The notes: generated from the sequence alone by a model not told the origin. A DNA stretch of 45,933 nucleotides from Candidatus Nezhaarchaeales archaeon (GCA_038853715.1 JAWCJE010000015.1:1-45933); one strand, 5' to 3'. Positions 1-44,026 are shown, counted from the first letter of the stretch. Numbers and translations are program-made.

Positions 1-616
1 CGTACGGGACGTACCTGCCGCAGCTAAGGTACGCTTTAGGGTTTAACCCTAAAAACCTAGGGTCAACACTAAACCAAGTGGTCCAATTTCCTTGGAAAGT
101 GGCGTTTTCGCCAGGGGGTGGATCGTACTTCTCATCCACGTATATGAAGCCTGCCCCAGACCTTGAACCCCCACCCCTAACATCCGTTGTCCAATCCCCG
201 TAGATGCCGTACTCAACCCCCGGAGGCATCTTCCTGGAGAAGGTCCATCCATCACTCCCCGTTGCGAAGTACATATTATTAACCGGGTAGTAGTAGGTGG
301 TTACTTGGCTTGCTGTTACCGTAACCGGGTACGTAGGGTTACGAATCCACCCTGAAGGCACGCCGTTAACAACGTATACATCCGGGTTCGCGTAAGTTTG
401 ATACGAGCCGAAGTAAACGTCCGTTACCTCGATAACCTCCTGCCTCCGCTCCTCATCGAGCTGATGCATTCTATCAACGGTTTTAACGTATTCGCCGTAG
501 CGCATCATGCTCCAAACCATGAGGTTGCCGACTATGAAGGCCGCGATGAATATGAACGCTACAGCCCCTATAACGTTAGCTATACCCCGCTTACCAAGTT
601 TAAAGCGTTGACCCAA
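1..616 (-). CDS. Pilin-like membrane-anchored protein, partial (C-terminus beyond window edge)
   Basis: The reading frame runs leftward off the window edge, so only about 205 codons are seen. The N-terminus reads GQRFKLGKRG followed by IANVIGAVAFIFIAAFIVG, a short basic stretch ending in Gly and then one hydrophobic helix. That is the layout of archaeal class III (type IV pilin or archaellin) signal peptides, where cleavage falls after the Gly. The rest is a Tyr-, Pro- and Gly-rich extracellular-type sequence of unknown fold. I chose the TTG at 616 because GGAGG lies 8 bases upstream, directly behind the stop codon of the preceding gene, and because it starts just before the signal. It is the third gene in a row with this N-terminal design, so all three probably form one surface-structure operon. 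The precise role (pilin, adhesin or archaellin) cannot be told. Confidence 0.6.
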   Translation of the reverse strand, partial: MGQRFKLGKRGIANVIGAVAFIFIAAFIVGNLMVWSMMRYGEYVKTVDRMHQLDEERRQEVIEVTDVYFGSYQTYANPDVYVVNGVPSGWIRNPTYPVTVTASQVTTYYYPVNNMYFATGSDGWTFSRKMPPGVEYGIYGDWTTDVRGGGSRSGAGFIYVDEKYDPPPGENATFQGNWTTWFSVDPRFLGLNPKAYLSCGRYVPY

Positions 617-630
617 GCCCTAAGCCTCCT

Positions 631-3600: not shown

Positions 3601-3729
3601 GAATGTTTGCGATATACCCCAGCTTACTACGGCGGCCATAAGTACGCCGACTACTACCGCCATTATTAGCATGGATACTAGGTAGCTTACGCCTTCGCTA
3701 CGGGACGACGAAGTAGGCTTCATACTCAT
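631..3729 (-). CDS. Large pilin-type surface protein with propeller-like and sandwich-like repeats
   Basis: This is a 1032-residue protein with a pilin-type N-terminus (SRSEG then VSYLVSMLIMAVVVGVLMAA), expected to leave one N-terminal helix in the membrane and the body outside. Residues about 45-150 resemble the beta-rich head of small archaeal pilins. About 158-265 hold three copies of an SYN/SYT-type repeat. About 270-690 hold roughly eight units with a W(N/T)G..W signature, probably a beta-propeller. About 694-800, 806-912 and 918-1032 are three related domains, the first two nearly identical and the third diverged. There are many N-x-S/T sites. The start overlaps the end of the upstream pilin-like gene by 32 bases, indicating co-transcription. 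The size is far above a normal pilin, so an adhesin or sheath role is more likely. Function is inferred from architecture only. Confidence 0.7.
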   Translation of the reverse strand: MSMKPTSSSRSEGVSYLVSMLIMAVVVGVLMAAVVSWGISQTFLGQSAYGEAITSLKEKAEEKVVIEHAWVTPDGILHLHVRNVGLIPVSVDAVYVNGTLIRVEPPVLIGLKNSATVNVTLPSMEAGYALITLATTRATMVSDYAYIPRLFIYTYYPSSYNVTLGSYLSGNLDSLRYRDLNYLVVKSAGTTTSSTPYNPSSYTILNGSLKSGTIENARSNDGNYITFESATHQSPSPYNPTGYSVITGTWLSGGLNDVKNSDDNYMVFESAPVKYLVRALLAYRSATGSGVNYPKVRVWNGIQWEEEQELASAESEVRWVRVATHPWKDEKIVVTLSADRYLDAYVWNGATWTKYSNLGRTETYNTRCFDIVYEQNSGRAILVYSYSPSSAVRDLAYRIWTGSSWLLEQYINDPYTSDTTVYWVSLAAKPGSNEVGLVYTHQRGSDRYVRAWIWNGTSWGNSVLISYRSGVSGSPKEICALAYEQASKRLVVTGVDYYPYQVAYAIWTGSSWSGIGYVDPNPDLDDEIFWLTLKADPASNRIMLTCVDGGNDLSTALWSGSAWSLSTRHEDNVETVDRRCADGDWEPTLNRFVLAWGVSLFNDLRYRVWDLSTGWGSINSLSGFDPAQHWVQARGCPLDEGIARVMFGVIDGANDLTMLYWDGNSLGNLFKATEVVDTYAYECFEVEYERFRTPIKQEVSVEFRGSSNTSPWSVLKWTVEAGFNVSSVNVTLQLYDYSAGGYPSSGDGYIHYTGGTVDEVKWQLINMNPTRFRDATGNWKLKITAIKQSSEAFQLRVDWVEYKPTVAAYVAEVVFEGVSNTYTWTQLNWLTDLAFNVSSVDVTLQLYNYSAGGYPSSGDGYIHYTSGPPNQDETRNQTILTSPERFRNATGGWRLKVKAVKDASFELKVDWVKYEPTYYTRYEVTVDFNFTNVTPPFTPGKLTFKVVSKYSLGSVNTVIQAWDYSLNGWSDTAKITYESADPPADEVKLLTITSDVGKYLRNGEARLRIHGVKDTAIRYDLLIDEVELKVEK
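1137..1227. repeat. 91-bp direct repeat, copy 1, inside the large surface protein gene
   Basis: This stretch matches 1473-1563 at 88 of 91 positions by eye, at an offset of 336 bp (112 codons), so the frame is kept. It encodes the core of a sandwich-like domain (NVTLQLY, AGGYPSSGDGYIHYT). Such high nucleotide identity inside otherwise more diverged domains suggests recent duplication or gene conversion. Confidence 0.85.
1473..1563. repeat. 91-bp direct repeat, copy 2, inside the large surface protein gene
   Basis: Partner of 1137-1227, with three base differences visible. The flanking parts of the two 112-residue domains are less similar, so the homogenised part is limited to the strand pair containing the SSGDGYIHYT motif. 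Confidence 0.85.
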
Positions 3730-4138
3730 TACCCCTACTCGTTGAAACCGTTATTAACTGCGTTGCCTTCCTAGCGAAGGGGGTTTGGGGGCTTACGTTT
3801 ATGCCTTTCACTTCGCCTGGCATAATTGTTTCGTATAGGTTTAGTGATGCCGCGGTGTGGTTTACGTAGATGCTGGCCACATTCACACTGATGCTCCCAT
3901 AGTTCCTTACGTAGACCGTTATTTTCTGGTTTTCCAGGTCAAACTTAACGTTTTCAATGGTGAAGGCTTCCTTCAACCTTTCATGGCTAGCCTCCAGTAT
4001 GGATGAGAAGCCTGTCTGCTGCGTGGAGACGAGGTTTTGGCCCCAGTTAATTATTATGGTGGCTATTATCGATACTAGGAGCATCATTAACATTACACTC
4101 ACTATGTAAGATACTCCTATAGGTCGGCTCCTTAACAT
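3698..4138 (-). CDS. Small archaeal pilin-like protein
   Basis: This 146-residue protein begins RSRPIG followed by the hydrophobic helix VSYIVSVMLMMLLVSIIATI, a typical archaeal pilin layout with probable cleavage after Gly. The remaining 110 residues are a beta-rich head (KFDLENQKITVYVRNYGSISVNVASI) closely related in pattern to the head that follows the signal in the downstream 1032-residue protein. Length and design fit minor pilins of archaeal type IV pili. Its stop lies inside the next gene, so the two are translationally linked. No prepilin peptidase, assembly ATPase or platform protein is seen in the window. Confidence 0.65.
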   Translation of the reverse strand: MLRSRPIGVSYIVSVMLMMLLVSIIATIIINWGQNLVSTQQTGFSSILEASHERLKEAFTIENVKFDLENQKITVYVRNYGSISVNVASIYVNHTAASLNLYETIMPGEVKGINVSPQTPFARKATQLITVSTSRGNEYEAYFVVP

Positions 4139-11860: not shown

Positions 11861-12211
11861 TTGTTAAATTTTTCTTCTAAGCCTCTTACTGTTTTAACTT
11901 TAATTCATGTGGTTTCTAGGTTTGTTGGGGAATGCTTGGTTCAAGTCCTACTAGGTATTCTGCCTTTGGTTAAACCATACGGCGATTATAGTTCCTTCAT
12001 AGGTATGGTTGAAGTATTAATGGATTATTATCTAAGTTTATCTTATAGGGCTGCCTCGTCTAAGTATAACTTCTCCTTCATGAGCTTATGCCGTTATTGT
12101 TATTCCCTATCTAAGGCTCCTTCCAGGATTAAGTTTAGGCTCGTAGCTCGTAGGTGTTTCCCATCTATCCATAGGCTACGCGGCTACACATGCGACCCAT
12201 CCACAATCTAA
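11861..12211 (+). pseudogene. Possible transposase N-terminal fragment
   Basis: This 116-codon ORF (TTG start) reads VLTLIHVVSRFVGECL, LVKPYGDYSSFIGMVEVLMD, YYLSLSYRAASSKYNFSFMS. It ends by running 36 bases into the convergent 3' end of the ribonucleotide reductase gene. The residues about 45-80 look like the helical N-terminal DNA-binding part of archaeal IS transposases, but I cannot fix the family. No DDE motif follows. With the inverted repeat at 11765-11820 it could be the left end of an IS truncated next to the reductase gene. Confidence 0.35.
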
Positions 12212-14827
12212 GCATTTAACGCATTTCTCCTCATATACTAGCCTCTTGCTTCCGCATTCGGGGCATACCTCTGGTTGTCGGGCTACTTCTTTTAACGTTA
12301 TGGTTGGGGGCGGTTTTAAGGGTTCAGCTTTAAGGTATACTGCTTCCTTGACCTCAGGCTTTAAAACTGGCTTAGGTGGTTCTATGCCTAGTTTAACCAT
12401 CAGGTTTAACGTCTCGTTTTTAGCTGTAGCGACGTAGCTACCTCTTCTCTGGGAGGGGGTTACTAGTACTTGAACCCCTTTGGATCCATCCCTGTAGATG
12501 GTTAAACCTTTAAGGTTGAGCTTGTAGGCGAAGAGGAAGGCTTTTTCAACGTCTTCAACGGTTACCCAGCTAGGCATATTTATTGTTTTACTAACCGCCG
12601 CGCAAATCCATTTAGCGATTTCGCTCTGCGCTCGAACATGGTCATACCACGGTATATCGTAGGCAACGACGAAAAACCTACGGAGCTCCTCCGGTATTTC
12701 GTTTAAGCCTTGAACCGATCCTCCATTATCCGCTACTTTTTTCAGGAGGGTTTCATCGTAGAGGCCGAGCCCCTTAAGCTGACGTTCAAACTCGACATCC
12801 ACGTAGAGGAACTGGCCGATGGTAACCCTTTTCTCGTAGACTAATGCGAACTGCGGTTCTATACCTGAGGAGGTGTCGGCTATCATTGATATTGTTCCGG
12901 TTGGGGCAATAGTCGTAACCTCGGCGTTCCTTATCCCCCACCTCTTAATTAACTCGACGAGTTCGTTCCAGTTTAGCGTCCACCAATCCTTATGGTAGTA
13001 TCCTTCAACTGGTAAATCTCCATTTACGTACGACGAACTGGGGAATAGGGGGAAGGGGCCGCGTTCAGCGGCCATTAGCGCTGAGGACCTCATAGCGTAG
13101 TACGTTAAATGCTCGGAGACCCTCCTCATGAAGCTAAAGCCCTCCTCATCGTTATAGGGTATTCTTAACGCGAAAAGGGTATCCGCAAGCCCCATTAACC
13201 CTAAACCTATCTTCCTAGAGTTTTTCGTCCTCTCCTCTATGGTCTTTAGGGGGAAATTGTTTACGTCGATAACGTTATCGAGGAACCTTTGAGCAAGCAT
13301 AACGACCTCGTCAAAGCTGTTCCAATCGAAGTAGGGCCGGTCGCCTTCAAACGCTACGAAGGCGTAGAGGTTTATGGAGCCTAGGTTACAGCTTTCGTAA
13401 GGGTATAGGGGCTCCTCACCGCATGGGTTTGTGGACCTTATATCCCCTAAAGCCTTCCTTAACACGTTCACCCTGTTAATGTTATCTAGGAATAGTACGC
13501 CCGGATCCCCGGAGGCCCAAGCCATTTCAGCTATTAAGCGTAGAAGTCTTCTAGGGCTTACCTCCCTCCAAATCCTACCGTCCCTAGGGTTTCTTAACGG
13601 GTACGGCTTATCGTTCTCGTAGTACTCCCAGAAGTCGGGCGTTATTAGGACGGAGAGGTTGAAGTTTGTAAGGAAGCCTTCAACCGATTTAGCCGTTATA
13701 AACTTCTCGATGTCGGGGTGCCATACCTCGAGTATGCCCATGCAGGCTCCACGCCTCTTCCCACCCTGTTTAACTACGTCGGTTACTACGTCGATAATCC
13801 TCATGAAGGATAGGGGGCCACTAGCAGTACCTTGGGTTGTGGAGACCACGTCGCCTTCAGCGCGTAGCTTACTATAGTTCATACCGATACCTCCTCCGGA
13901 CTTAAAGATTAAGGCGGCGTCGCTCGCAGCTTTCATTATGGAGTCCATGCTATCGTCTATGTCGAGGACGAAGCAAGCAGATAGTTGCCCTAGCCTCGTA
14001 CCGGCGTTAAAAAGGGTCGGCGAATTAGGGATGAACTTCTTCTCGACCATGACCCTATAGTACCTTGTATAGGCGTCGTAGAAGCTATCAAATTCGCCTT
14101 TAACGAGCTTAGCCCAGAAGTCGCTCCATTTAAGCTTCATCTTTCCTTGAGCGTTTAGCTCATCGTATAACGCCTTCAGCCTTTCTAGGTGCCACTGACT
14201 CCACGTTACGTTAAAACCGCCGTCAATACGCTTACCTAGTCCAACCTTCCCATCCCATTCGCTAGGGTTAAACAATTCGAAGGGATGTACCGGTTGCTTA
14301 CCCTCCTTATCGAATATTGTCGAGCTATATAGTATATCCGGGATAACTACGAGGGCGGCTACCCTTTCAAATAGCTGTTTCGGCGATTCAATAATCCTAC
14401 CCGATCTATCCTTAAGCAGGTACCTAGAGGCTAAAACCCTAATCGCGTTAACCGAGAAGGCCTTATCAACCTCGTCGATAGAGGCCTTCCCGAGGATAGC
14501 CATCTTCTCCTTCCTTATACGCTCCCTCTCCTTCCTATACAGTATGTAGGCCTTGGCGACTTCGTAGAGGTCGAATTTAACTAGCGCTAACTCAACTATG
14601 TCCTGAATATCCTCAACGTGGGGGGTTTTACCGTCGCCATACTTTTCATTAACCGCTTTAATAACGTAGTTAACTACTTCTTCAAGCACTTTTTCATCGT
14701 ACTTACGGACGCTCACCATAGCCTTCCTTACGGCGTTCCTAATCCTATTAACGTCGAAGTCAACTACTCTTCCATCACGCTTTACAACCTTGCTAACCCT
14801 AAGGAGGATCGTATCCAAGCGCTTCAC
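12176..14827 (-). CDS. nrdJ: Adenosylcobalamin-dependent (class II) ribonucleoside-diphosphate reductase
   Basis: This 883-residue enzyme makes deoxyribonucleotides using a B12-generated radical, so it needs neither oxygen nor an NrdB partner. Residues about 10-105 are an ATP-cone (VVKRDGRVVDFD). The barrel carries LGQLSACFVLD near 282 with one redox Cys, FKSGGGIGMNYSKLR, the active-site NPCGEEPLYPYESCNLGSIN near 467 and APTGTISMIADTSSGIEP. The C-terminus from about 857 has CPECG, CVKC and CLDCGWVACVAA, the zinc-ribbon and swinging-arm cysteines. There is no intein. The start is GTG; a TTG four codons on is also possible. No nrdB, nrdD or thioredoxin is nearby. A gap of about 210 bases separates it from the hdr operon upstream. 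Confidence 0.92.
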   Translation of the reverse strand: MKRLDTILLRVSKVVKRDGRVVDFDVNRIRNAVRKAMVSVRKYDEKVLEEVVNYVIKAVNEKYGDGKTPHVEDIQDIVELALVKFDLYEVAKAYILYRKERERIRKEKMAILGKASIDEVDKAFSVNAIRVLASRYLLKDRSGRIIESPKQLFERVAALVVIPDILYSSTIFDKEGKQPVHPFELFNPSEWDGKVGLGKRIDGGFNVTWSQWHLERLKALYDELNAQGKMKLKWSDFWAKLVKGEFDSFYDAYTRYYRVMVEKKFIPNSPTLFNAGTRLGQLSACFVLDIDDSMDSIMKAASDAALIFKSGGGIGMNYSKLRAEGDVVSTTQGTASGPLSFMRIIDVVTDVVKQGGKRRGACMGILEVWHPDIEKFITAKSVEGFLTNFNLSVLITPDFWEYYENDKPYPLRNPRDGRIWREVSPRRLLRLIAEMAWASGDPGVLFLDNINRVNVLRKALGDIRSTNPCGEEPLYPYESCNLGSINLYAFVAFEGDRPYFDWNSFDEVVMLAQRFLDNVIDVNNFPLKTIEERTKNSRKIGLGLMGLADTLFALRIPYNDEEGFSFMRRVSEHLTYYAMRSSALMAAERGPFPLFPSSSYVNGDLPVEGYYHKDWWTLNWNELVELIKRWGIRNAEVTTIAPTGTISMIADTSSGIEPQFALVYEKRVTIGQFLYVDVEFERQLKGLGLYDETLLKKVADNGGSVQGLNEIPEELRRFFVVAYDIPWYDHVRAQSEIAKWICAAVSKTINMPSWVTVEDVEKAFLFAYKLNLKGLTIYRDGSKGVQVLVTPSQRRGSYVATAKNETLNLMVKLGIEPPKPVLKPEVKEAVYLKAEPLKPPPTITLKEVARQPEVCPECGSKRLVYEEKCVKCLDCGWVACVAA

Positions 14828-15038: not shown

Positions 15039-16157
15039 TTAAGTGTCGGTACTCTGTATCGCCATAGATACTACTTCTGTTAGATCGTAAATCCTTAATG
15101 GAAGCTTCCTCTTAGTGGAGGTTAGCTTAAAGTTCATGTAGCATAAGGGGCAACACGTCGCTAATCCCTCCACGTTAAGGGGTAATACTTCCTTTACGAG
15201 TTTCTTGTAGGCTATCTCCATAGCCATCTCGTAGTTTAAAGGCCAAAGCCCGCCTCCACCTCCACAACAGGTTGCGTAGTCCCGCGTAGGGTTTATTTCT
15301 ACTAGTTTAACTCCATCTATGGAGTTAAGGGCTTTACGTGGGGCGTCGTAAACCCCGGAATGCCTACCTAGCGAGCATGGATCGTGGTATGTGAGGGTTA
15401 ACGGCTCGTTAAGCCTTAAGCCAGCGCCCTTTAAATTCTGCTCTAGTAGTTGTGATACGTGCATTACTTTAACGCTAGGAAATTCGACTCCTAGGGTTTC
15501 GGGGTATAGCTTTATGAAGGCGTTGTAGCAGCCTGAACAAGGCGTAACGATAGCTTCAACCCCGGCCTCCTCCACGGCTTTAACCGTTTTAAGCGCGACT
15601 AGCCTCGCTTCATCGATTAACCCGAGCCTTATTAATGGTTCACCGCAGCAGGGCTCATCGTTTAAAAGCTTAAACTCTAAGTTAAGCCCCTTTAACGCTT
15701 TAAGGGTTGCTTCAGCTATCCCCCTAGCCTTAATGGAGGGCGTACAACCAACCCAGTAGAGTAGGTGTACGCGCGTTGATAGTTGGAAGGGCTGTTTAAG
15801 CCAAGAGGTCTTAGTCCTTGTTAATGATCGGTAGGGGCTATTAAACTTCCTAATCGCTTCAAGCGCCTCGTAAACCTGGCTTGGAGCCATACCGCTTTTT
15901 AAAGCTAACTCCCTAAGCGCTAAAACCAGTTTAGGGATTTCAAGCTCCTCGGTACATAGTACTTGGCATCTATAGCATTGGGTACATAGCCATGGATACC
16001 TAGCTAGAAATTCTCTAGTATTGAATAGGTTTAGCTGTACGCGTCTAACTAGCTTCCTAATATTGAAGTCGCTTACATCCTTTAATGGGCAGGAGGCTGT
16101 ACAGGTTCCGCATTGCGCGCAACGCCTAATAAGCTCCTTAAACCGCTCTTCTATCAA
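15039..16157 (-). CDS. Heterodisulfide reductase HdrC-HdrB fusion (HdrD-like, CCG protein)
   Basis: This 372-residue iron-sulfur protein combines an HdrC-like part and an HdrB-like part. Two 4Fe-4S motifs lie near residues 13 (CAQCGTCTASCP) and 57 (CTQCYRCQVLC, followed by Thr-Glu rather than Pro). Two CCG domains follow: VGCTPS with EPCCGEP and PCSGCY, then HDPCSLG with TCCGGGGG and TCCPLCY. In methanogens this domain pair carries the noncubane clusters that reduce CoM-S-S-CoB; in other lineages it acts on different thiols or passes electrons. The TTG start follows GGTGAAGCC, 4 bases after the preceding gene, so it is the last gene of a three-gene operon. GlpC and lactate-utilisation LutA are alternatives by family, but the HdrA neighbours decide for Hdr. 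Confidence 0.85.
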   Translation of the reverse strand: MIEERFKELIRRCAQCGTCTASCPLKDVSDFNIRKLVRRVQLNLFNTREFLARYPWLCTQCYRCQVLCTEELEIPKLVLALRELALKSGMAPSQVYEALEAIRKFNSPYRSLTRTKTSWLKQPFQLSTRVHLLYWVGCTPSIKARGIAEATLKALKGLNLEFKLLNDEPCCGEPLIRLGLIDEARLVALKTVKAVEEAGVEAIVTPCSGCYNAFIKLYPETLGVEFPSVKVMHVSQLLEQNLKGAGLRLNEPLTLTYHDPCSLGRHSGVYDAPRKALNSIDGVKLVEINPTRDYATCCGGGGGLWPLNYEMAMEIAYKKLVKEVLPLNVEGLATCCPLCYMNFKLTSTKRKLPLRIYDLTEVVSMAIQSTDT

Positions 16158-16161
16158 GGCT

Positions 16162-18210
16162 TCACCCTAGCCCTAACTTCCTAACCATTTCCTTAACGGT
16201 GGCGGCGAACTTAGGGCCGTCAGCGGCTGAAAGCCACACCGTCCAAAGCCTACTTGGATCTATACCTTTACCGGTTAGTACCTTTTTAACGCGCTCCATT
16301 CTCTCCTTACACTTGTAGTTACCGGTTATGTAGTGGCAGGTTGGAAATTCGCAGCCAGCTACTAAGACGCCTGCTGCTCCAAGCTCGAAGGACCTGTAAA
16401 TGAAGGATGGGTCAATGCGCCCCGAACACATAACCCTTATTACGCGTATGTTTAAAGGGTATTCAAGCCTACTAACCCCCGCTACGTCGACGGCCCCTAA
16501 GGCGCACCAGTGGCAGCAGAACGCTATTATCTTATCCCGAGGCTTCTCGGCTAAAGCTGCTTCTACCTGTGCTAGTATCTGTTCATCTGTGAAGTGGGTT
16601 ATGTCTATGGCGTTCATGGGGCAGTCCGCGGCGCAGGTTCCGCAGCCTTTACATAATGCTTTTATGAGGTGTGGCTCCTTATCGATTAGCTCGATAGCTC
16701 CGAAGGGGCAGTTCTTAGCGCAGAGGCCGCATTTAATGCATTTCTCCAGGTTTATGTGTGCGATTACTCCCTCGCTTTCTACGTAGCCTCGCTCCATGGG
16801 TATGGAGGCCCTCATAGCTGCTCCTAAGGCTTCCTCTATTGACTCCTTTACGCTTTTAGGCGATCTAGCGCAGCCGCATACGTATATGCCGTCAGTGGCG
16901 AAGTCGAGGGGCCTTAGCTTAATGTGTGCCTCCTGGAAGAAACCTTCGGGGTTAATTGAAACCTTGAGTAGACCTCGAAGCTTATCGGCTGCTTCACCTC
17001 CTTGGAGGGAGGTGGTTAAAACCACTAGGTCCGCGGGGATCTTTAACTCTTCACCTAGGAGGATGTCGTAAACCTTAACCGCTAGCCTTCCATCCTCCTC
17101 GTAAACCTCGGGTTTTAGCGCTTCGGAGTACCTAATCAGTTTAATATCGTACTTTTCAACGGCCTCCTTAAGGTATAGTTCCTCGAACCCTTTAACGTTC
17201 AAATCCCTGTATAGTAGGTAGATGTTAACGTCACCTTTTAGCTCCTTAGCGTGTTTAGCGCTCTTTACTGATGCTAAGCAGCCTATGTTGCAGCAGCCGC
17301 GTTCCTTGCTCCTTGAATTAACGCAGTTTATAATTACGATGTCTTTAACGCCGTTTAGCTTATTCCCTTTTAAGAGCTCTTCGAACCGTAGTAGTGTAAC
17401 TACGTTAGGATGCCTTCCGTAACCGTAGAGGCCTATTGGTTTTAGCTCCGTCATGCCCGTGGCCACTAGGATTGTTGAGGCTTCAAGCTCTTCACTTATC
17501 CCGCCTCTTCTAACCCTAACCTTGAAGCTTCCGACGTAGCCTTTAACATCCTCCACCTCTGCCTCGGTGTATACCTCGATGTTTTTATGGCTTGTTACCT
17601 GCTTCACCTTATCCTTAACGATTTGATCCGCGTCTTGATCGTAGGGGGCTATTTTATATAGCCTGTTTAGAAGCCCGCCGAGCTTATCTTCCTTCTCAAC
17701 TAGCTTTACTTTGAAGCCTCGATCGGCTAAGGCTAAGGCGGCGGTCATACCGGCTATACCACCACCTATAACTAGGCAGGTCCTTCCGACTGGGAGGCGT
17801 ATTTCCTCAGCTGGTTCGAGGAGTAATGCTTTAGCTACACCCATTTTTACTAGGTCTTTAGCCTTCTCTGTTGCTAGTTGAGGGTTAAACCTATGAACCC
17901 ATGAGCATTGCTCCCTAATACTTACGAATTCGAGTAGGTAAGGGTTTAACCCCGCCTCTTTAAGCGTTGACTTAAAGGTTGGCTCATGGGTTCTAGGGGT
18001 GCAGCAGGCTACGACGACCCTTTCAAGGTTGTTTTTAGCTATAAGGTCCTTAATCCTTGAAAGGTAATCGACCGAGCATATCCATTTACCTTCCTCGGCT
18101 AAAACTACTCCTTTAAGCTTTTTAGCGTATTCGACAACCTCGGGTACGTTTACGACGCCGCCGATGTTGGTTCCGCATCTACAGATGAAAACGCCGACCC
18201 TAGCGTTCAA
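16162..18210 (-). CDS. HdrA-MvhD fusion flavoprotein (QmoB-like)
   Basis: This 682-residue protein starts with the HdrA-specific N-terminal domain (GVFICRCGTNIGG, VVVACCTPRTHEPTF). A thioredoxin-reductase-like FAD domain follows (VIGGGIAGMTAALALADRG near 147, then ERGCCNIGCLASVKSAKHAK). Two ferredoxin motifs lie near 490 and 520 (CIKCGLCAKNCP, CKGCGTCAADCP). From about 560 comes an MvhD/FrhD-type 2Fe-2S domain (AFCCHWCALGAVDVAG, VMCSGRIDP, GCEFPTCHY). In known Hdr complexes HdrA holds the bifurcating FAD, and MvhD passes electrons from the donor enzyme. The fused form is seen in QmoB of sulfate reducers and in HdrA2-type proteins. The TTG start is preceded by GGTGAAAG just after the stop of the upstream gene. 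It is central to the proposed electron-transfer complex. Confidence 0.88.
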   Translation of the reverse strand: MNARVGVFICRCGTNIGGVVNVPEVVEYAKKLKGVVLAEEGKWICSVDYLSRIKDLIAKNNLERVVVACCTPRTHEPTFKSTLKEAGLNPYLLEFVSIREQCSWVHRFNPQLATEKAKDLVKMGVAKALLLEPAEEIRLPVGRTCLVIGGGIAGMTAALALADRGFKVKLVEKEDKLGGLLNRLYKIAPYDQDADQIVKDKVKQVTSHKNIEVYTEAEVEDVKGYVGSFKVRVRRGGISEELEASTILVATGMTELKPIGLYGYGRHPNVVTLLRFEELLKGNKLNGVKDIVIINCVNSRSKERGCCNIGCLASVKSAKHAKELKGDVNIYLLYRDLNVKGFEELYLKEAVEKYDIKLIRYSEALKPEVYEEDGRLAVKVYDILLGEELKIPADLVVLTTSLQGGEAADKLRGLLKVSINPEGFFQEAHIKLRPLDFATDGIYVCGCARSPKSVKESIEEALGAAMRASIPMERGYVESEGVIAHINLEKCIKCGLCAKNCPFGAIELIDKEPHLIKALCKGCGTCAADCPMNAIDITHFTDEQILAQVEAALAEKPRDKIIAFCCHWCALGAVDVAGVSRLEYPLNIRVIRVMCSGRIDPSFIYRSFELGAAGVLVAGCEFPTCHYITGNYKCKERMERVKKVLTGKGIDPSRLWTVWLSAADGPKFAATVKEMVRKLGLG

Positions 18211-18217
18211 TAGGCTT

Positions 18218-19564
18218 TCACCCTAATGATGCTGCTTTTAAGCTAGCGGCCACGGCTTGAACCACGGATTCCGAGATATCTATAGGGCCTGTGGCGCCGC
18301 CGCATACGTAAATCCCCTTAACGCTGGTTTCGAAGGGCGCGTTTAACGGATCCTTCTCCTTGAAGAAGCCGTATTCATCGAGTTCCACCTTTAAGGTCTT
18401 AGCTAGCTTCTCGTTACGCTCATTAGCGACAAGCGGCATGGATAAAACTAGTAAATCAACCTTTAACTCCTCGACTTCACCCTTATCCAGGTCTTCGTAC
18501 CTAACGGTTAAGCTCTTCGTGGCCTGATCCTCTAAAACATCTGACGGCCTACCCTTTACGTATTTAACGCCTAACTCCTTAGCCTTCCTGTAGAAGTTGA
18601 AGAAGCCCTTACCGTAGGTTTTCAGATCCCTATATAGTATGTAGGTGTCGACTGCCGGGTCGTGCTCCTTGGTTATGATGGCTTGCTTAGTGGCGATCAT
18701 ACAGCATACCTTCGAACAGTACGGTATGCCTACCTTTTTATCGCGGCCAACACATTGAATCCAAGCTATCCTTCTAGGGCGGGATCCATCTGATGGCTTA
18801 ACTATTTCGCCTCGGGTTGGTCCACCGGCGTTCATCATCCTCTCGTATTGAAGGTGCGTGATAACGTCCTTATACACTCCGTAACCGTAGAGTCCCTGCG
18901 GGGGTTTAAGTACCCCTAATCCTGAAGCTATTATTATACTAGCGACCTCTATATCGATGAACCTATCCTTCTGCCAAAGCGTTACAGCGTTAGCTCCTTC
19001 ATCCCTACAGGCTTTAACGCATTTCGCTATTGGGCATTCGCGGCATTGACTACAGTCGACGATACACTTACCTACACAGGCGCCTACATCCTTCATTTTT
19101 CCGTAGCGGCATCTAGGGTCTACGAGGTAGCTGTTCGGAACTGCTTGAGGGAAGGGTATGTAGATTAGCTTCCTCGTACCGCCGATCCCACCGTCCACCT
19201 CGTCGGGAACGGTGACTGGGCATACTTCAACGCACTTCCCGCAGCCCTTACACTTCCCCTCATCCACGAAGCGCGCCTTCTTAACCAGCCTCACCTTGAA
19301 GGAGCCGGCCGACCCTTCAACCCTTCTAACCTCGCAGTAGGTTAACAGCTTTATGTTGGGATGCTTTTGAACCTCATACATTTTAGGGGCCTCTATACAT
19401 ATTGAGCAGTCGTTAGTAGGGAAGGTCTTATCGAGCCTAGCCATTAACCCGCCTATGCTAGGGGCTTCATCAACTAGGTACACCTGAAAACCGTAGTCGG
19501 CTAGGTTTAACGCCGCCTCAATACCGGCTATACCGCCACCTACTACGAGTATGGAGCGAGGCAC
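18218..19564 (-). CDS. HdrA/QmoA-like FAD iron-sulfur protein
   Basis: This 448-residue flavoprotein carries VVGGGIAGIEAALNLADYG at the N-terminus and PTNDCSICIEAPKM, the HdrA cysteine motif. A ferredoxin motif lies near residue 105 (CKGCGKCVEVCP). It also has a Cys-rich insert CVGKCIVDCSQCRECPIAKC near 165, then YCSKVCCMIATKQAI and a closing FAD motif GIYVCGGATGPIDISES. It lacks the N-terminal HdrA domain and the second ferredoxin pair, so it resembles QmoA more than a full HdrA. It is the first gene of the operon. The GTG start lies about 11 bases after the start predicted from the TATA box at 19595-19604, with GAGGGTGA in between. No aprAB or qmoC is in the window, so a sulfate-reduction role is not supported. 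Confidence 0.85.
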   Translation of the reverse strand: MPRSILVVGGGIAGIEAALNLADYGFQVYLVDEAPSIGGLMARLDKTFPTNDCSICIEAPKMYEVQKHPNIKLLTYCEVRRVEGSAGSFKVRLVKKARFVDEGKCKGCGKCVEVCPVTVPDEVDGGIGGTRKLIYIPFPQAVPNSYLVDPRCRYGKMKDVGACVGKCIVDCSQCRECPIAKCVKACRDEGANAVTLWQKDRFIDIEVASIIIASGLGVLKPPQGLYGYGVYKDVITHLQYERMMNAGGPTRGEIVKPSDGSRPRRIAWIQCVGRDKKVGIPYCSKVCCMIATKQAIITKEHDPAVDTYILYRDLKTYGKGFFNFYRKAKELGVKYVKGRPSDVLEDQATKSLTVRYEDLDKGEVEELKVDLLVLSMPLVANERNEKLAKTLKVELDEYGFFKEKDPLNAPFETSVKGIYVCGGATGPIDISESVVQAVAASLKAASLG

Positions 19565-19594
19565 GATTCACCCTCTGAAAAGGCTTCATCGTCA

Positions 19595-19604
19595 CTTATA
19601 TATT
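19595..19604 (-). promoter_or_regulatory. TATA box of the leftward hdr operon
   Basis: The minus strand reads AATATATAAG, centred near 19600, putting transcription at about 19575 and giving an 11-base leader holding the ribosome binding site. Confidence 0.55.
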
Positions 19605-19646
19605 GGGCTAATAGAGCTTATGAATATTATTTGCATTATCTGTATA

Positions 19647-19669
19647 AAGTATAAAAACTTAAAGTATAA
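19647..19669. promoter_or_regulatory. Direct repeat AAAGTATAA between the divergent operons
   Basis: AAAGTATAA occurs at 19647-19655 and again at 19661-19669, 14 bases apart start to start, between the two divergent TATA boxes. It may be an operator or upstream promoter element shared by both operons. This is an inference. Confidence 0.3.
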
Positions 19670-19686
19670 GGGTTGCTTGCTTCTCC

Positions 19687-19694
19687 ATATATAA
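19687..19694 (+). promoter_or_regulatory. TATA box of the rightward flavin reductase operon
   Basis: ATATATAA lies about 67-74 bases before the preferred ATG at 19761; the implied start is near 19716. Confidence 0.45.
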
Positions 19695-19760
19695 CCTTAA
19701 GAGGTAAGCTATAACTAAGTATCCCTGTTAAAGACTGGGGAGGCTTTGAGGTCGGTTTGT

Positions 19761-21749
19761 ATGCCTAACCTAGCTATAAGCTGGGATTACACTGGACAGC
19801 CGGGCTATAAGATGTTTCCCCACTTATTCCAGCCGGTAAGGATAGGTAGGCTAACCGTACCTAATAGGATAAAGTACGCAGCTACCGAGGATAACTTCAA
19901 TACGCATGACGGCTTCGTAACCGATGTGGACGTGGCTTACATTAGGGAGCGCGCGAAGGGCGTCGTCGGAGGTATATGTACTATTCAGGGGGTTTACATG
20001 GATCCTAAGGGTGAAGGTAAAGGCTACGTAGGGCAAGCCGCCGCGTACGACGATAAGTTCATACCGGGGTTAAAGAGGCTTGCTGACGCTATTCACGGCG
20101 AGGGCGCCATAGCCAACATCCAGCTAATGCACTGTGGAAGGGTAGGTGGAATAGAGCTACCATACTGCGTAGGCCCATCGGCTATCCCTCAACGTTTACG
20201 TATATTTAGGCCGGTGAAGGAGATGAGTAAGGACGATATTAAGCAATGTATAAAGGAGCATGCCGATGCTGCTAGGAGGGGTATTGAAGCCGGGTTCGAC
20301 ATCATTGAGATATCGGGCATCGTCGGCTACCTAATATCAAACTTCCTATCTAAGTACACCAATAGGAGGACCGATGAGTACGGCGGCGATATTGAGGGGC
20401 GCTGTAGGTTTATGGTTGAGGTTATTCAAGCGGTTAGGGACGTGATCGGTAAGGACGTACCGATAATTATTAGGTTATGCGCTGAGGAACTGCTCGACGA
20501 CGTAAACGGTAATACTCCTGAGGAGTGCATGATAACCTATAAAATGGCTGAGAAGGCAGGAGTGGATTGTATAAGCGTAACGCAGGGTTGGCAGGAATCA
20601 GTGGTTCCAGTTATAACTAGGGATGTACCTCAGGGTAGTTGGCTTTATAACGCTAAACGCGCTAAGGAGGCAGGGATTAAGGTACCGCTTAGCATGGCTT
20701 ATAGGTTGTTTAAGCCTGAAATAGCTGATAAGGCTATAGCTGATGGCATAATAGATATATGGGAGATGTGTAGGCCAATGATAGCTGACCCCCACCTACC
20801 GAAGAAGGTGTTAGAAGGTAGGCTTGAGGATATAAGGCCATGCATAGCTTGCAACCTATGTTTAGCGAGGTTATTCCGAGACGCCCCCATGACCTGCTCC
20901 GTAAACCCGCTCGTTGGACATGAATGGGACCCTGAATGGCAGGTTAAACCAGCTGAAGCCAGAAAGAAGGTTATGATAGTGGGCGGCGGCCCGGCAGGCC
21001 TTGAATGCGCGAGGGTTGCCGCGCTTAGAGGCTATGAGGTACACCTCTACGAGAAGCGTGATATCTTGGGGGGACAACTAGTAGCAGCGAGTAAAGGGCC
21101 CTTCGGGGAGGATGAACTCTACGGCGTAATAACATGGCTCATAACCCAATGTAGGAAGGCCGGGGTAAACTTCCACTTAAATACGACGGTTACACCGAGC
21201 ATGATGGAGGAAGAGGCTCCAGACGTAATAGTGATAGCTACTGGGGCTAGGTTTACCGCTGAAAAGGTCCCCGGCTTCGATAGGCCTAACGTGGTGTCAG
21301 CCGTCGACGTACTTGAGGGGAGGGTTGAAACCGGTGAAAAAGTAGTTGTATGGGGTGGGAAGGGCGCTGGCATTGTAACCGCGCTATACCTAGCTAATAA
21401 GGGTAGGAAGGTATCCATGGTATGCATGGATAGGAGGGTCGGTAGGGACGTAAACCCTTCATACGTATGGAGGTATATTCAAAAGCTTAACCAGCTAGGG
21501 GTAAGGGTTTATAGGAATAGTAGCATCGAGAGGATAACGGAGGACGGCGTCATCGTTAAAGCCCCCTACGACGTAAGGATACCTATCGCCGCGGATACCG
21601 TCATATACGCTGAAAGGGAGGCCGTCGCCGATCTCGTTGAGGCGGCTAGGGCCGTATGCCCCGAGGTTTACGTTATCGGCGATGCGCTAGTACCGCGTAG
21701 GCTACAAAACGCGATCCACGACGGGTATCGTATCGGAATAAGGATGTAG
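19761..21749 (+). CDS. Old yellow enzyme / 2,4-dienoyl-CoA reductase-like FMN-FAD-4Fe4S oxidoreductase
   Basis: This flavoenzyme of about 662 residues has the three-part architecture of bacterial FadH and trimethylamine dehydrogenase. It opens with an FMN TIM barrel (LFQPVRIGRLTVPNRI, GYLISNFLSKYTNRRTDEYG, TFIIRLC-type strands). A 4Fe-4S motif follows near residue 360 (CIACNLCLARLF then CSVNP), and then two dinucleotide folds (GGGPAGLECARVAALRG near 408; GGKGAG near 531). The segment before GYLI reads EISGIV, as in FadH-type enzymes rather than the His-containing classical OYE pattern, so an enoyl- or dienoyl-thioester substrate is plausible but not proven. The frame is open from a TTG at 19746, but that is only 2 bases from GGAGG. 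GAGGT lies 8 bases before the ATG at 19761, which I prefer. It heads a three-gene operon divergent from hdr. Confidence 0.85.
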   Translation: MPNLAISWDYTGQPGYKMFPHLFQPVRIGRLTVPNRIKYAATEDNFNTHDGFVTDVDVAYIRERAKGVVGGICTIQGVYMDPKGEGKGYVGQAAAYDDKFIPGLKRLADAIHGEGAIANIQLMHCGRVGGIELPYCVGPSAIPQRLRIFRPVKEMSKDDIKQCIKEHADAARRGIEAGFDIIEISGIVGYLISNFLSKYTNRRTDEYGGDIEGRCRFMVEVIQAVRDVIGKDVPIIIRLCAEELLDDVNGNTPEECMITYKMAEKAGVDCISVTQGWQESVVPVITRDVPQGSWLYNAKRAKEAGIKVPLSMAYRLFKPEIADKAIADGIIDIWEMCRPMIADPHLPKKVLEGRLEDIRPCIACNLCLARLFRDAPMTCSVNPLVGHEWDPEWQVKPAEARKKVMIVGGGPAGLECARVAALRGYEVHLYEKRDILGGQLVAASKGPFGEDELYGVITWLITQCRKAGVNFHLNTTVTPSMMEEEAPDVIVIATGARFTAEKVPGFDRPNVVSAVDVLEGRVETGEKVVVWGGKGAGIVTALYLANKGRKVSMVCMDRRVGRDVNPSYVWRYIQKLNQLGVRVYRNSSIERITEDGVIVKAPYDVRIPIAADTVIYAEREAVADLVEAARAVCPEVYVIGDALVPRRLQNAIHDGYRIGIRM

Positions 21750-21761
21750 GAGGTGTATGAA

Positions 21762-22280
21762 GTGATTGATGCGGAGGCCGAGTTAAGGAAGCTCCTATCC
21801 AAGTTCGACACCCTATGCTCAATAGTTAGAGCCACCTGGTACGAGTGGCGTGAAGCAGCCTTAGCATACGCCCGTCCGGACGTAAAGCCGTTGGACCTAG
21901 TCCTTAAAGCTTGGGAGATAGTGGGGCATGATACCGCTAAAGCCTACTTCCCCCTCCTTAATAGGGCTAGTCCGACCTTCCTAGAGGACGTCGCTAAGCT
22001 AATAGTTATGAGTTCGACCTCGATGGGTGAGGACGCTAAAGTTGTTAAAAGCGATAAGCCGAACGAGGTTTACGTACAGTGGGATCACTGTCCGTGGCCC
22101 GAGTTCGCCCGCCGCTACAAAGCCCCAATGGAGGAGGATGTGTTAGGCTGTGATAAGTGGTTTACGACGGTCATCGACGATATTAACGCTCTGTTTAACA
22201 CCAAGATAAGGCTTAAAACCCTTAAGGCCATACCCAGAGGGGATGGTATCTGCCTTAGAAGGCTTTGGATTGAGGGGTAG
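21762..22280 (+). CDS. Small protein resembling the ATC-hydrolase (L-2-amino-thiazoline-4-carboxylate hydrolase-like) family
   Basis: This protein of 172 residues has a helical first half and a second half with VYVQWDHCPWPEFARR, EDVLGCDKWFTTVIDDINA and a C-terminal GICLRRLWIE strand. The Trp-x-His-Cys and Gly-Cys-Asp motifs and the alpha-beta order resemble proteins annotated as ATC hydrolases, many of which occur beside anaerobic oxidoreductases and have no proven role. I give family resemblance only. The frame also allows a GTG at 21753, but GGAGGT at 21749-21754 is correctly spaced (7 bases) for the GTG at 21762. It sits between the flavin reductase and a ferredoxin with almost no gap, so it probably serves the same pathway, for example in substrate handling or as a chaperone. 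Confidence 0.5.
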   Translation: MIDAEAELRKLLSKFDTLCSIVRATWYEWREAALAYARPDVKPLDLVLKAWEIVGHDTAKAYFPLLNRASPTFLEDVAKLIVMSSTSMGEDAKVVKSDKPNEVYVQWDHCPWPEFARRYKAPMEEDVLGCDKWFTTVIDDINALFNTKIRLKTLKAIPRGDGICLRRLWIEG

Positions 22281-22490
22281 GTGGCGGGATTGGTAGCTGA
22301 AATAGATTACGATAAGTGTAGGATGTGTGGAGCCTACGATAAACCTATCTGCGTAGACGTATGCCCAACTAGCGCTATTTCGCAGCGCGATAAGAAAATA
22401 GAGGTTACCGAGTTCCTATGCGAAGATTGTAACGAGTGCGGCTTTCATTGCCCGGATAAAGCCATAAGGATAAGGAAGCTAACCTTTTAA
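22281..22490 (+). CDS. 4Fe-4S ferredoxin-like protein
   Basis: This is a 69-residue protein with two cluster motifs. The second is a regular CEDCNECGFHCP. The first is CRMCGAYDKPICVDVCP, with an insertion between the second and third cysteine, as in several dedicated ferredoxins that partner one enzyme. The GTG start follows the upstream stop immediately. It is probably the electron carrier or small subunit of the flavin reductase upstream, linking it to the Hdr proteins or to the por enzyme that converges from the other side. Confidence 0.8.
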   Translation: MAGLVAEIDYDKCRMCGAYDKPICVDVCPTSAISQRDKKIEVTEFLCEDCNECGFHCPDKAIRIRKLTF

Positions 22491-22517: not shown

Positions 22518-23414
22518 TCAGCTAGGCTGTTTACACCTCGCTTGGAGGGCTTTCCAAGCTTCGTCGACCTCCTTCTGTATACGATCGACTTCTTCAGCCG
22601 TTAAATGGTTAAACCTACGCTGAACCATTAGGTACTCCTTAACCGGTTTAGGCTTCTTAACGTCTACGGTTAGCCTCCAAACTCCACCTTCCACTTCGTA
22701 TAGGGGCCAAACCCTGGATTCAACGGCTAGCCTAGCCATTTCAACGGTCTTCGACTCGTGGAAGCCCCAACCCACCGGGCATGGTGTTAATACGTGTATG
22801 TATTTAGGCCCCTTAATCCCCATCGCCTTCTTAACCTTGTTTACGTAGTCCAAGAGGTAGCCGATGGAAGCGGTGGCTACGTAGGGGGCTCCATGATCAG
22901 CTATTAGCAGCGGCATATCCTTTCTAGGCCTATCCTTACCCCTCCAAATACTACCAACCGGCGTTGTAGTAGTATACGCGTTAAGGGGGGTTGTACCGCT
23001 ACGTTGACCGCCCGTATTCATGTATGCTTCATTATCGAGGCATACGTAGATGACGTTATGGCCGCGTTCAACCATAGCTGAAAGCGATTGAAAACCTATA
23101 TCGGCTGTGCCTCCATCACCTATAAAGCCGACTACGTTAACGCGGCCGCCTAATCCCTTAGCTTCAAGGGCTGCTTCAATCCCTGAAAGTATGGCTCCAC
23201 CAGCTGCGAATGGGCCTACGTGTAGCGGGAGGGTTGATGCGCCCATCATTAAGGCGGCTGAGGCGCAGCCGGGGACGGATGCTACAATAGTGTTCCTACC
23301 TAAAACCTTAAGCGCTAGCCTCATCGCTAGGCTTTCACCGCAACCAGCGCAGAGGATATTACCTGGGGCGTAGTATTCCTCTTCGGGTAGAGTTTTTAAG
23401 GTGAGTGTATACAC
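22518..23414 (-). CDS. porB: 2-oxoacid (pyruvate-type):ferredoxin oxidoreductase beta subunit
   Basis: This subunit of about 298 residues binds thiamine diphosphate: NILCAGCGESLAMRLAL near the N-terminus carries two cluster-ligand cysteines, and VGFIGDGGTADIGFQSLSA is the GDG motif, followed by EAYMNTGGQRSGTTP. The enzyme oxidises a 2-oxo acid with CoA to acyl-CoA, CO2 and reduced ferredoxin, or runs in reverse. The frame is open from an ATG at 23441, but GGAGGGAGG in the tail of porA sits 7 bases before the GTG at 23414. That start yields VYTLTLKTLPEEEYYAPG, the normal N-terminus. Order delta-alpha-beta is usual; the gamma subunit is not present here. Pyruvate is the probable substrate but 2-oxoisovalerate cannot be excluded. 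Confidence 0.88.
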   Translation of the reverse strand: MYTLTLKTLPEEEYYAPGNILCAGCGESLAMRLALKVLGRNTIVASVPGCASAALMMGASTLPLHVGPFAAGGAILSGIEAALEAKGLGGRVNVVGFIGDGGTADIGFQSLSAMVERGHNVIYVCLDNEAYMNTGGQRSGTTPLNAYTTTTPVGSIWRGKDRPRKDMPLLIADHGAPYVATASIGYLLDYVNKVKKAMGIKGPKYIHVLTPCPVGWGFHESKTVEMARLAVESRVWPLYEVEGGVWRLTVDVKKPKPVKEYLMVQRRFNHLTAEEVDRIQKEVDEAWKALQARCKQPS

Positions 23415-23416
23415 GG

Positions 23417-24607
23417 TTAAAACCTCCCTCCAAACGACCATTCAACCTCGGTTTCAACCCTACCGGTTCTAGCCGCCTTTAAGGTTTTAATGGCTATTCG
23501 CTCGATATCGCTAGGCGTTACATCCCTACCGCCTAAGCCTGTTATAAAGCTTAGTACGGAGGGCCTTTGATCTAGGTCGTAGAGGGTTGAACGTAGCTCT
23601 ACGAATACCGCGCCTCCTTGACCTACTGAGTAATCCCTCTCAATAACGCCTATGGCGCGTACGTTTACCGCTACCCTCCTTAACTCCTCCTTCGGGAAGG
23701 GCCTGAAAGCCCTTAGGTTTAATAGCCCAACCTTCTCCCCCTGCTTCCTAAGCCTATTAATTACCATCTTAGCTGTTTCGGTTATACTCCCCATGGCGAT
23801 TAGGATTGCCTCCGCGTCATCGCATAGGTATTCTTCGATTAAGCCTCCATAACCCCTACCGAACCTAGTTCGGTATTCACGGTCAACCTCCGCTATAACG
23901 CGTTTAGCCTGCTCCATGGCCTCGTCGTGCTTACGTTTAAACCCAGCCCACCAGTCCGCCGGTACGAAGGTTGTAAGGATTAATGGGTCTTCCACGTCGA
24001 GCTTATAGATAGGCTTAAAGGAGGGTAGGAAGGAGTCTACCTCCTCCTGATCGGGTATTACTACGTTCTCGTAACAGTGGGAGAGTACGTAGCCTTCGAA
24101 GCAAACCATTACCGGCAGCATAACCCTATGGTCCTCGGCTATTCGATATGCTTGAATCACGGTGTCTAGGATCTCCTGGTTATTCCTACAGTAGATCTGT
24201 ATCCATCCGGTATCGCGTTGGGCTATGCTATCGTCGTGGCCTGTTAGAATGGTCCAGGGTACGCCTATGCTACGGCTTACTACAGCCATTACCACTGGGA
24301 GCCTACTACCGGAGGTGTAGAAGAGCCCTTCATGCATGTAGGCTAACCCTTGCGAAGATGTAGCGGTAAACGTACGTGCTCCAGCCGTCGCGGCAGCCGC
24401 GCAGGCGATGATCGCGCTATGCTCCCCTTCTATCGGTATATATTTTGATTTAAGTAGGCCGTTAGCTACAAATCCGGCTAAAGCTTCAACGATAGGCGTC
24501 TGCGGGGTTATTGGGTAGGCGCAAATAACGTCGGGCTTAGCAAGCTTTACGCCGTAGGCGGCAGCCGTATTACCATCTATGAAGGCTTTCGTAGGCAACA
24601 CTTTCAC
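23417..24607 (-). CDS. porA: 2-oxoacid (pyruvate-type):ferredoxin oxidoreductase alpha subunit
   Basis: This 396-residue subunit contains the PYR domain (YPITPQTPIVEALAGF, EGEHSAIIACAAAATAGART, TATSSQGLAYMHEGLFY) and the C-terminal domain II region (EAILIAMGSITETAKMVI, GLLNLRAFRPFP). The Thr in YPITPQTP and the Glu in EGEHSA are typical of pyruvate enzymes. Its GTG start overlaps the porD stop by 4 bases (GTGA), so the two are translationally coupled. Together with porD and porB it forms the catalytic core. Confidence 0.9.
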   Translation of the reverse strand: MKVLPTKAFIDGNTAAAYGVKLAKPDVICAYPITPQTPIVEALAGFVANGLLKSKYIPIEGEHSAIIACAAAATAGARTFTATSSQGLAYMHEGLFYTSGSRLPVVMAVVSRSIGVPWTILTGHDDSIAQRDTGWIQIYCRNNQEILDTVIQAYRIAEDHRVMLPVMVCFEGYVLSHCYENVVIPDQEEVDSFLPSFKPIYKLDVEDPLILTTFVPADWWAGFKRKHDEAMEQAKRVIAEVDREYRTRFGRGYGGLIEEYLCDDAEAILIAMGSITETAKMVINRLRKQGEKVGLLNLRAFRPFPKEELRRVAVNVRAIGVIERDYSVGQGGAVFVELRSTLYDLDQRPSVLSFITGLGGRDVTPSDIERIAIKTLKAARTGRVETEVEWSFGGRF

Positions 24608-24894
24608 CTAGCCATGGTTATAGCTTTAACCGGGCATTCATTAGCACAGATACCGCAACCCTTACAGTGAGCGTAGTCGATGGATGGCTTACCGTCCTTC
24701 ATTCTCACTACGCCTTCGGGGCAGTAAAGCCAGCAGAGCTTACATCCAGTACACTTCGCCTTATCCACTTCAGGCCTTCCGTGTAGGAGCCATGAAGTCT
24801 CGGTAAGTATCGATACGCCCGCTTTAAGCACGGGGGTTATGGGTAGATCTTCATAGGATTCGTACTTTATTTTTATGCTATCGCTAACCTTCAT
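24604..24894 (-). CDS. porD: 2-oxoacid:ferredoxin oxidoreductase delta subunit (2x 4Fe-4S)
   Basis: This 96-residue protein carries CTGCKLCWLYCPEG and CKGCGICANECPVK, the two 4Fe-4S motifs of PorD, after a leader with TSWLLHGRPEV that is typical of the family. A GGAGG lies about 12 bases upstream of the ATG. It is the first gene of the visible operon. Between its start and the next ORF no gamma subunit gene is found. Confidence 0.9.
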   Translation of the reverse strand: MKVSDSIKIKYESYEDLPITPVLKAGVSILTETSWLLHGRPEVDKAKCTGCKLCWLYCPEGVVRMKDGKPSIDYAHCKGCGICANECPVKAITMAR

Positions 24895-39062: not shown

Positions 39063-39174
39063 TCCTCCCACCCCTACAGGGCGTAGACAAGTCGTTACAC
39101 GCATAAAAATATTACTTAAAGCACTTAAGGATGATTAGGCTTAATTAGTTAATCGTTGGGGGCGTCGAAGCGTA

Positions 39175-43326: not shown

Positions 43327-43331
43327 AGGGT

Positions 43332-44015: not shown

Positions 44016-44026
44016 CGAAACCACCG

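Follow-up and report, generated by a model that had tools for sequence, protein, structure and literature searches.

Type III aryl-coenzyme A (CoA) reductases operate at about –500 mV. All assays of these enzymes have used artificial one-electron donors, and a ferredoxin is named only as the likely natural donor (PMC6502838, PMC12093976, PMC13365417). The class includes AprB-E and the 2-naphthoyl-CoA reductase (NCR), which breaks naphthalene's aromatic ring. NAD(P)H is not a donor for NCR, whose electrons are thought to come from a ferredoxin (PMC6502838). In NaphS2, BamGHI-like genes (NPH_5472-5474) adjoin the reductase genes NPH_5475/5476 (PMC2988823), a precedent for a ring reductase of the old yellow enzyme (OYE) family standing beside an electron-input module. 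In the class II benzoyl-CoA reductase BamB-I, HdrA-like and MvhD-like parts serve the ring reductase without ATP (PMC12016498). Type II QmoAB pairs, which are HdrA-like, also occur without Dsr/Apr, and their role is listed as open (PMC10504309). Here we describe a locus in a 45,933-nt stretch of DNA from a Candidatus Nezhaarchaeales archaeon (JAWCJE010000015.1:1-45933, hereafter the window) in which an Hdr/Qmo-like operon faces an operon encoding an OYE-family enzyme and a ferredoxin. An incomplete literature search returned no description of HdrA/Qmo paired with an OYE or a dienoyl-CoA reductase; a prior description is possible.

The locus (positions 15039-22490) had been described in an original prediction as six genes in two head-to-head operons sharing a gap of ~180 bases. 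All six open reading frames were confirmed, in two divergent operons separated by 181 bases. Pfam/NCBIfam and PDB matches upheld the identities predicted for the QmoA/HdrA-like, HdrA-MvhD, HdrC-HdrB and ferredoxin proteins, and the domain calls were firm except for the protein of 175 amino acids (aa). The features are:

15039-16157, minus strand: HdrC-HdrB fusion, 372 aa (Pfam CCG, E = 2.6e-25, and Fer4_8; partial NCBIfam matches to HdrB/HdrC)
16162-18210, minus strand: HdrA-MvhD fusion, 682 aa, QmoB-like (Pfam FlpD, E = 4.1e-46; 5odc_A, E = 6.1e-136)
18218-19564, minus strand: short HdrA, 448 aa, QmoA-like (9sfi_A, E = 4.4e-123; 5odc_A, E = 1.6e-122)
19565-19745, no strand: 181-bp intergenic region between the divergent gene starts
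19746-21749, plus strand: OYE-family FMN/[4Fe-4S]/FAD enzyme, 667 aa from TTG (Pfam Oxidored_FMN, E = 2.2e-65, and Pyr_redox_2; 6qkg)
21753-22280, plus strand: conserved small protein, 175 aa (distantly related to PF14196; predicted fold of V4R/TRAPP type)
22281-22490, plus strand: 2[4Fe-4S] ferredoxin, 69 aa (Pfam Fer4/Fer4_7; motif scan)

The three plus-strand genes nearly abut. Judging from ortholog starts, which align there, the OYE probably begins at ATG 19761 rather than at TTG 19746.

The closest solved relative of the OYE was NCR (6qkg, E = 2.8e-162, 45% identity), compared with E = 4e-87 and 34% identity for Escherichia coli 2,4-dienoyl-CoA reductase (DCR, FadH; 1ps9). In a tree with one NCR-type reference sequence, 13 close relatives, the window's enzyme included, formed a single clade with NCR (100/100), separate from DCR and from the other OYEs of the sampled genomes. 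The enzyme has the OYE barrel (FMN), [4Fe-4S] linker and FAD/Rossmann domains (Pfam) that the NCR family requires. DCR shares this architecture, so the description of the enzyme as dienoyl-CoA-reductase-like stood in that respect; its phylogeny did not follow, as the OYE grouped with NCR and not with FadH. The tree, the NADPH motif and the active-site residues led us to reject a FadH identity. Scores of the OYE for the NCBIfam families BaiCD, BilR-long and mycofactocin OYE were also well under the cut-offs. A structure model built for the enzyme on an alignment of three rows was discarded (mean pLDDT 46.6).

We mapped the NCR residues discussed in PMC6502838 onto the OYE by alignment. The cluster cysteines C366, C369, C372 and C384 align with NCR C367, C370, C374 and C386, and Y195, Y94, T279, G281, Y319, E340 and R243 correspond to NCR Y197, Y82, T280, G282, Y320, E341 and R245; I194/V195 and F379 of NCR are kept as well. 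In NCR, Y197 is the proton donor and E341 is said to lower the FMN potential (PMC6502838). The NCR-type E341 was present in 14/14 clade members checked and absent from DCR and the other OYEs checked; DCR also differs in having no NCR-type Y320. The second Rossmann motif, the GxGxxG of NAD(P)H binding, is intact in DCR (GCGGIG) and degenerate in NCR and the clade members (GGKGAG, GGRGPG, GNRKPG and similar), which makes NAD(P)H binding by the OYE doubtful. The degenerate motif coincides with a ferredoxin gene in the same operon, which is kept in close orthologous operons and encodes the motifs CX2CX7CX3C and CX2CX2CX3C. Kinship with NCR leads us to expect very low-potential, ferredoxin-dependent chemistry, and the OYE reads as a putative low-potential, ferredoxin-fed CoA-thioester reductase whose acyl part need not be naphthoyl. 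Unlike NCR, it is archaeal and has its own ferredoxin and an Hdr module.

The pairing of this enzyme with the Hdr genes was conserved in other genomes. The head-to-head block recurs across the intergenic region in two other genera, of another family but the same order (G003, loci L022/L037, and G001, L023), with 67-82% identity to the window for the OYE, small protein and ferredoxin and 70-73% for the short HdrA. Its Hdr side is cut by contig ends there and continues in L089 and L090. Alignment of the intergenic region showed little shared sequence, so promoter conservation was not seen. The HdrC-HdrB fusion has an ortholog at L090:550-1671 (60%) and a partial one at L040:2489-3007 (52%), the latter convergent with the ferredoxin gene. 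The window's genome (G000; 1.55 Mb, 95% complete) and G003 are of one order; a contig of the latter matches GenBank QMSI01000074, 'Thermoprotei archaeon B40_G2', a metagenome-assembled genome (MAG) from Guaymas.

We then counted orthologs among 294 bacterial genomes from the phylum of G402 (OYE, E<=1e-200; short HdrA, E<=1e-150) and among 398 genomes of the archaeal phylum. In the bacterial sample the OYE was found in six genomes and the short HdrA in four, all four among those six. In the archaeal sample the OYE was found in three genomes; these also have the short HdrA, which occurs in addition in G091 and G171. A naive hypergeometric estimate for this co-occurrence was ~5e-8 in bacteria and ~1e-6 in archaea; these values are uncorrected for relatedness and optimistic, yet the pattern repeats in both domains. 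In G451 (L133), a stretch of about 11 kb holds, all in the same orientation, the genes for the OYE, small protein and ferredoxin and those for short HdrA, HdrA-MvhD and HdrC. The two blocks share a contig and a strand in G421 (L135, L155), with ~7 kb between them, and G402 and G593 have them on separate contigs. Trees of the OYE, short HdrA and HdrA-MvhD agreed over seven genomes, with (G001,G003) beside G000, and G402 beside (G451,(G421,G593)). The linkage, co-occurrence and congruent trees in Archaea and Bacteria show that the OYE-Hdr linkage is not accidental and support a conserved functional coupling; they also agree with the first check named in the original prediction, conserved linkage of the six families. 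The record of G402 (L041) is labelled Candidatus Kuenenia stuttgartiensis, and its contig has ~62% GC; the species label looks doubtful.

In G091 and G171 (L152, L153), a QmoAB-like HdrA pair is followed by NfnA-/NfnB-like genes, another partner for such a pair, and [NiFe]-hydrogenase-like genes lie near the pair in L153. The OYE-linked HdrA members form their own clade, separate from the NfnAB-linked ones.

The Hdr side has the parts expected of an electron-transfer module. HdrA-MvhD contains the HdrA N-terminal domain, an FAD domain, two ferredoxin clusters (C491, C520) and a C-terminal MvhD/FlpD domain; its MvhD cysteines and two C-terminal clusters are intact (motif scan). The short HdrA, with orthologs at 70-73% identity in order-mates and 62-64% in bacteria, is without the N- and C-terminal HdrA domains and has one inserted [4Fe-4S] motif (C105). 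K409/E356 of Methanothermococcus thermolithotrophicus HdrA, located beside FAD N5, have been proposed to mark a bifurcating HdrA (PMC12054007). Equivalents are present in both proteins (K293/E241 in short HdrA, K316/E277 in HdrA-MvhD) and kept in aligned orthologs, which is indirect support for their competence in bifurcation. The HdrC-HdrB fusion carries two [4Fe-4S] motifs (C13, C58; motif scan) and two intact CCG motifs for the non-cubane cluster (CX31CCX35CXXC at 138, CX35CCX37CXXC at 261).

This third subunit varies among relatives. It is HdrCB with two HdrB-type CCG motifs in the window and G001 and an HdrCB paralog with a single one in G003. The Hdr genes are followed in G003 by a separate NarI-like gene and an HdrD/DsrK-like gene, and in G001 by an HdrD/DsrK-like gene and a 249-aa protein without a Pfam match. 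In bacteria, HdrC instead forms a fusion with an NAD(P)H flavoprotein of the GltD/NfnB type, which would provide an NAD(P)H electron entry; this protein has no HdrB part and hence no HdrB CCG motifs. The variability matches the modularity described for QmoAB-HdrBC/HdrD (PMC10504309), which the locus resembles, as it does type II QmoAB, in combining short HdrA and HdrA-MvhD with a soluble HdrC/HdrB-type third subunit. It differs in that the pair is joined to an OYE operon; there is no AprAB in the window, and neither QmoC nor AprAB genes were seen around the cluster (no search for AprAB was made in the rest of the genome). Like BamB-I it has HdrA-like and MvhD-like electron-transfer parts, but the catalytic subunit is an OYE and not tungsten BamB, no AOR-type gene lying beside the cluster, and the bacterial NAD(P)H entry is GltD-like, not NuoEFG-like. 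With HdrABC-MvhAGD it shares the K409/E356 pair, an MvhD domain and HdrC/HdrB parts with CCG motifs; it differs in its two HdrA chains, split Qmo-fashion, and in the absence of adjoining MvhAG or FdhAB. McrA was not found in the eight genomes searched (the window's and seven others), which makes CoM-S-S-CoB an unlikely substrate, and we set aside a role in reducing this heterodisulfide.

Three bacterial HdrA paralogs of G440 and G413 (L157, L158, L163) have an in-frame TGA at DCS(I/T)-U-I or DCAI-U-I, a position where the solved 9sfi HdrA also has a non-standard residue and the window's short HdrA has Cys. These are probably selenocysteine HdrAs, and gene damage as the source of the apparent stop was rejected.

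From the computed gene content, linkage, co-inheritance, NCR kinship and conserved residues, we infer a conserved redox module in which a QmoAB/Hdr complex feeds an OYE reductase of the NCR kind through the operon's ferredoxin. We put the probability of this reading at roughly 55%. Short HdrA, HdrA-MvhD and an electron-entry subunit would produce low-potential electrons, which the 2[4Fe-4S] ferredoxin would carry to the OYE. The FAD of the OYE would accept them singly and pass them through the [4Fe-4S] cluster to FMN. FMN would then transfer a hydride to an acyl-CoA, unsaturated or aromatic, that is beyond the reach of NAD(P)H, and the product would enter beta-oxidation. The entry subunit would be interchangeable: HdrC-HdrB in the window; in an order-mate, HdrC/HdrD-like proteins accompanied by a NarI-like membrane partner; and HdrC-GltD/NfnB in bacteria. 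Inherited together in distant archaea and some bacteria, the OYE, ferredoxin and Hdr proteins probably form one working system, which would provide a CoA thioester that is hard to reduce with electrons of very low potential. A bolder version, which we hold only tentatively, is that of a bifurcating complex, in archaea and bacteria alike, whose QmoAB/Hdr core drives a type III aryl-/enoyl-CoA reductase via its dedicated ferredoxin and so constitutes the type III electron source. Bifurcation would require a second acceptor besides ferredoxin.

Several observations weigh against this reading or parts of it. The Hecatellales loci L038, L039 and L042 keep the OYE, small protein and ferredoxin genes (~60-75%) without adjoining Hdr genes, and no short-HdrA ortholog was found in the three Hecatellales genomes, which are small and probably incomplete MAGs. 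Short HdrA is likewise missing from G440 and G413, which retain the OYE, the small protein and a ferredoxin. The Hdr module is therefore not obligatory, which argues for a ferredoxin shuttle over an obligatory complex; other ferredoxin reductants can suffice for the OYE operon in these genomes. In the active site, V38, N247, H284 and W459 of NCR are replaced by E, C, Q and L, and the Phe cluster is altered at F375 and F573, so that the substrate may not be aromatic. The K/E pair that favours bifurcation in both HdrAs is common to most HdrAs and is no proof by itself. The bacterial versions have no HdrB, which makes the thiol/disulfide branch put forward in the original prediction doubtful as a general feature; the earlier interpretation as a whole is partly supported.

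The genes around the cluster in relatives suggest a catabolic pathway of CoA thioesters, possibly aromatic ones. An HCDH/ECH fusion, thiolase, DUF35 and an LLM-type F420 enzyme lie directly upstream in L038; thiolase and DUF35 are near the OYE operon in L039; and LLM, DUF35 and thiolase genes are about 9-12 kb away in L023. Contig C25 of the window's genome has an orthologous thiolase (74%) with ECH, LLM and DUF35 genes, and L133 contains acyl-CoA synthetase, ECH and thiolase. With such thiolase/DUF35, hydratase and LLM-type F420 genes nearby, beta-oxidation would be a plausible destination for the OYE product.

A first alternative, which we consider unlikely, is that the ferredoxin of the OYE is reduced by a 2-oxoacid:ferredoxin oxidoreductase (POR/IOR), with Hdr/Qmo acting as a separate, co-regulated sink for beta-oxidation electrons. 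Thauera benzoyl-CoA reductase obtains its ferredoxin electrons from KorAB. POR genes lie directly downstream of the cluster in the window (22518-24894), IorAB adjoins the bacterial OYE-Hdr cluster of G451 (L156) and, by sequence appearance, occurs in L136, and the OYE operon of Hecatellales manages without this Hdr. However, the POR adjacency is lost in L022 and L023, where the HdrA genes are retained, and the exclusive OYE/HdrA co-occurrence and congruent trees fit a direct link better.

Reverse flow, with the OYE oxidising its substrate and the ferredoxin delivering the electrons to QmoAB/Hdr, whose acceptor would be a disulfide, NAD(P)+ or a membrane carrier, is also improbable in our view. 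Some three-domain OYEs are dehydrogenases (1djn, 3k30; trimethylamine and histamine dehydrogenases), the NarI-like gene of G003 and the HdrD/DsrK-like genes of G001 and G003 suggest a respiratory sink, and the gene setting is catabolic. Against these points, the tree places the OYE with NCR and not with histamine dehydrogenase, and the conserved proton-donor Tyr and FMN-lowering Glu are typical of low-potential reductases.

A narrower form of the reading that we favour, with a CoA-activated heterocycle or hydroxyaromatic as substrate, seems to us less probable still; the module would then serve ring hydroxylation or dehydroxylation, ring reduction and lactam opening. Beside the bacterial cluster, L156:1285-11199 contains 4-hydroxybenzoyl-CoA-reductase/XDH-like genes (best family 4-hydroxybenzoyl-CoA reductase alpha, 621 bits, under cut-off), methylmalonyl-CoA-mutase-type genes and caprolactamase alpha/beta-like HyuAB genes, and XdhA-like genes occur in L039 and L138. 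All these family matches are sub-cut-off, though, and such genes were not found beside the archaeal cluster of the window. An ordinary NADPH-dependent FadH for unsaturated fatty acids that happens to adjoin an unrelated Hdr would explain the identical three-domain architecture and the beta-oxidation genes of the genome but is very improbable, given the 100/100 grouping apart from DCR, the degenerate NAD(P)H motif, the dedicated ferredoxin gene and the conserved co-inheritance with the HdrA genes.

The small protein had been called ATC-hydrolase-like. Its match to PF14196 (E = 0.0023, 19.2 bits) did not reach the Pfam cut-off of 28.1, and we rejected this identity; the best member scored E = 1.1e-6. 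A confident model built from 12 homologs (pLDDT 92) had as its nearest PDB folds TRAPPC3/Bet3, H-NOX and the phenol-sensing domains of PoxR/MopR, with TM-scores of about 0.4-0.6, and the predicted structure resembles V4R/TRAPP-type folds. Seven residues are invariant (C113, P114, W115, E127, D129, C133 and C167), among them three Cys and a CPW motif. The protein may act in ligand binding or assembly.

Other genes were noted in passing. An adenosylcobalamin-dependent ribonucleotide reductase gene (12176-14827, minus strand) lies directly downstream of the HdrCB gene and appears unrelated. By eye, 1-4138 (minus) encodes three proteins with archaeal pilin/flagellin-like N-termini, and 42271-45028 (minus) the ATPase, permease and binding protein of an ABC transporter similar to tungstate/molybdate uptake systems; by sequence appearance, 38058-39104 (minus) encodes an F420-dependent LLM/Mer-type oxidoreductase-like protein, and HyuA/B-like proteins are also present in L090. 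Elsewhere in the genome, L092 (G000:C1:74000-93000) combines EtfBA-like genes, a second HdrA, HdrCB and a 903-aa protein with an HdrD-like part with acyl-CoA synthetase, HCDH, ECH, acyl-CoA dehydrogenase and thiolase genes (sequence appearance and BLAST), and reads as a separate Hdr/Etf-linked beta-oxidation cluster.

The co-inherited Hdr/Qmo, ferredoxin and OYE module is a candidate route to low-potential electrons without ATP. The pairing with an OYE suggests what type II QmoAB pairs that occur in the absence of sulfate-reduction genes may do (PMC10504309), and the NCR clade now has members in archaea, some of them lineages from Guaymas Basin sediment. If the proposed module is real, it would stand next to the Bam complex, as its OYE counterpart, as one more architecture for reducing rings or enes without ATP, and it would supply type III reductases with the physiological electron source that has been missing.

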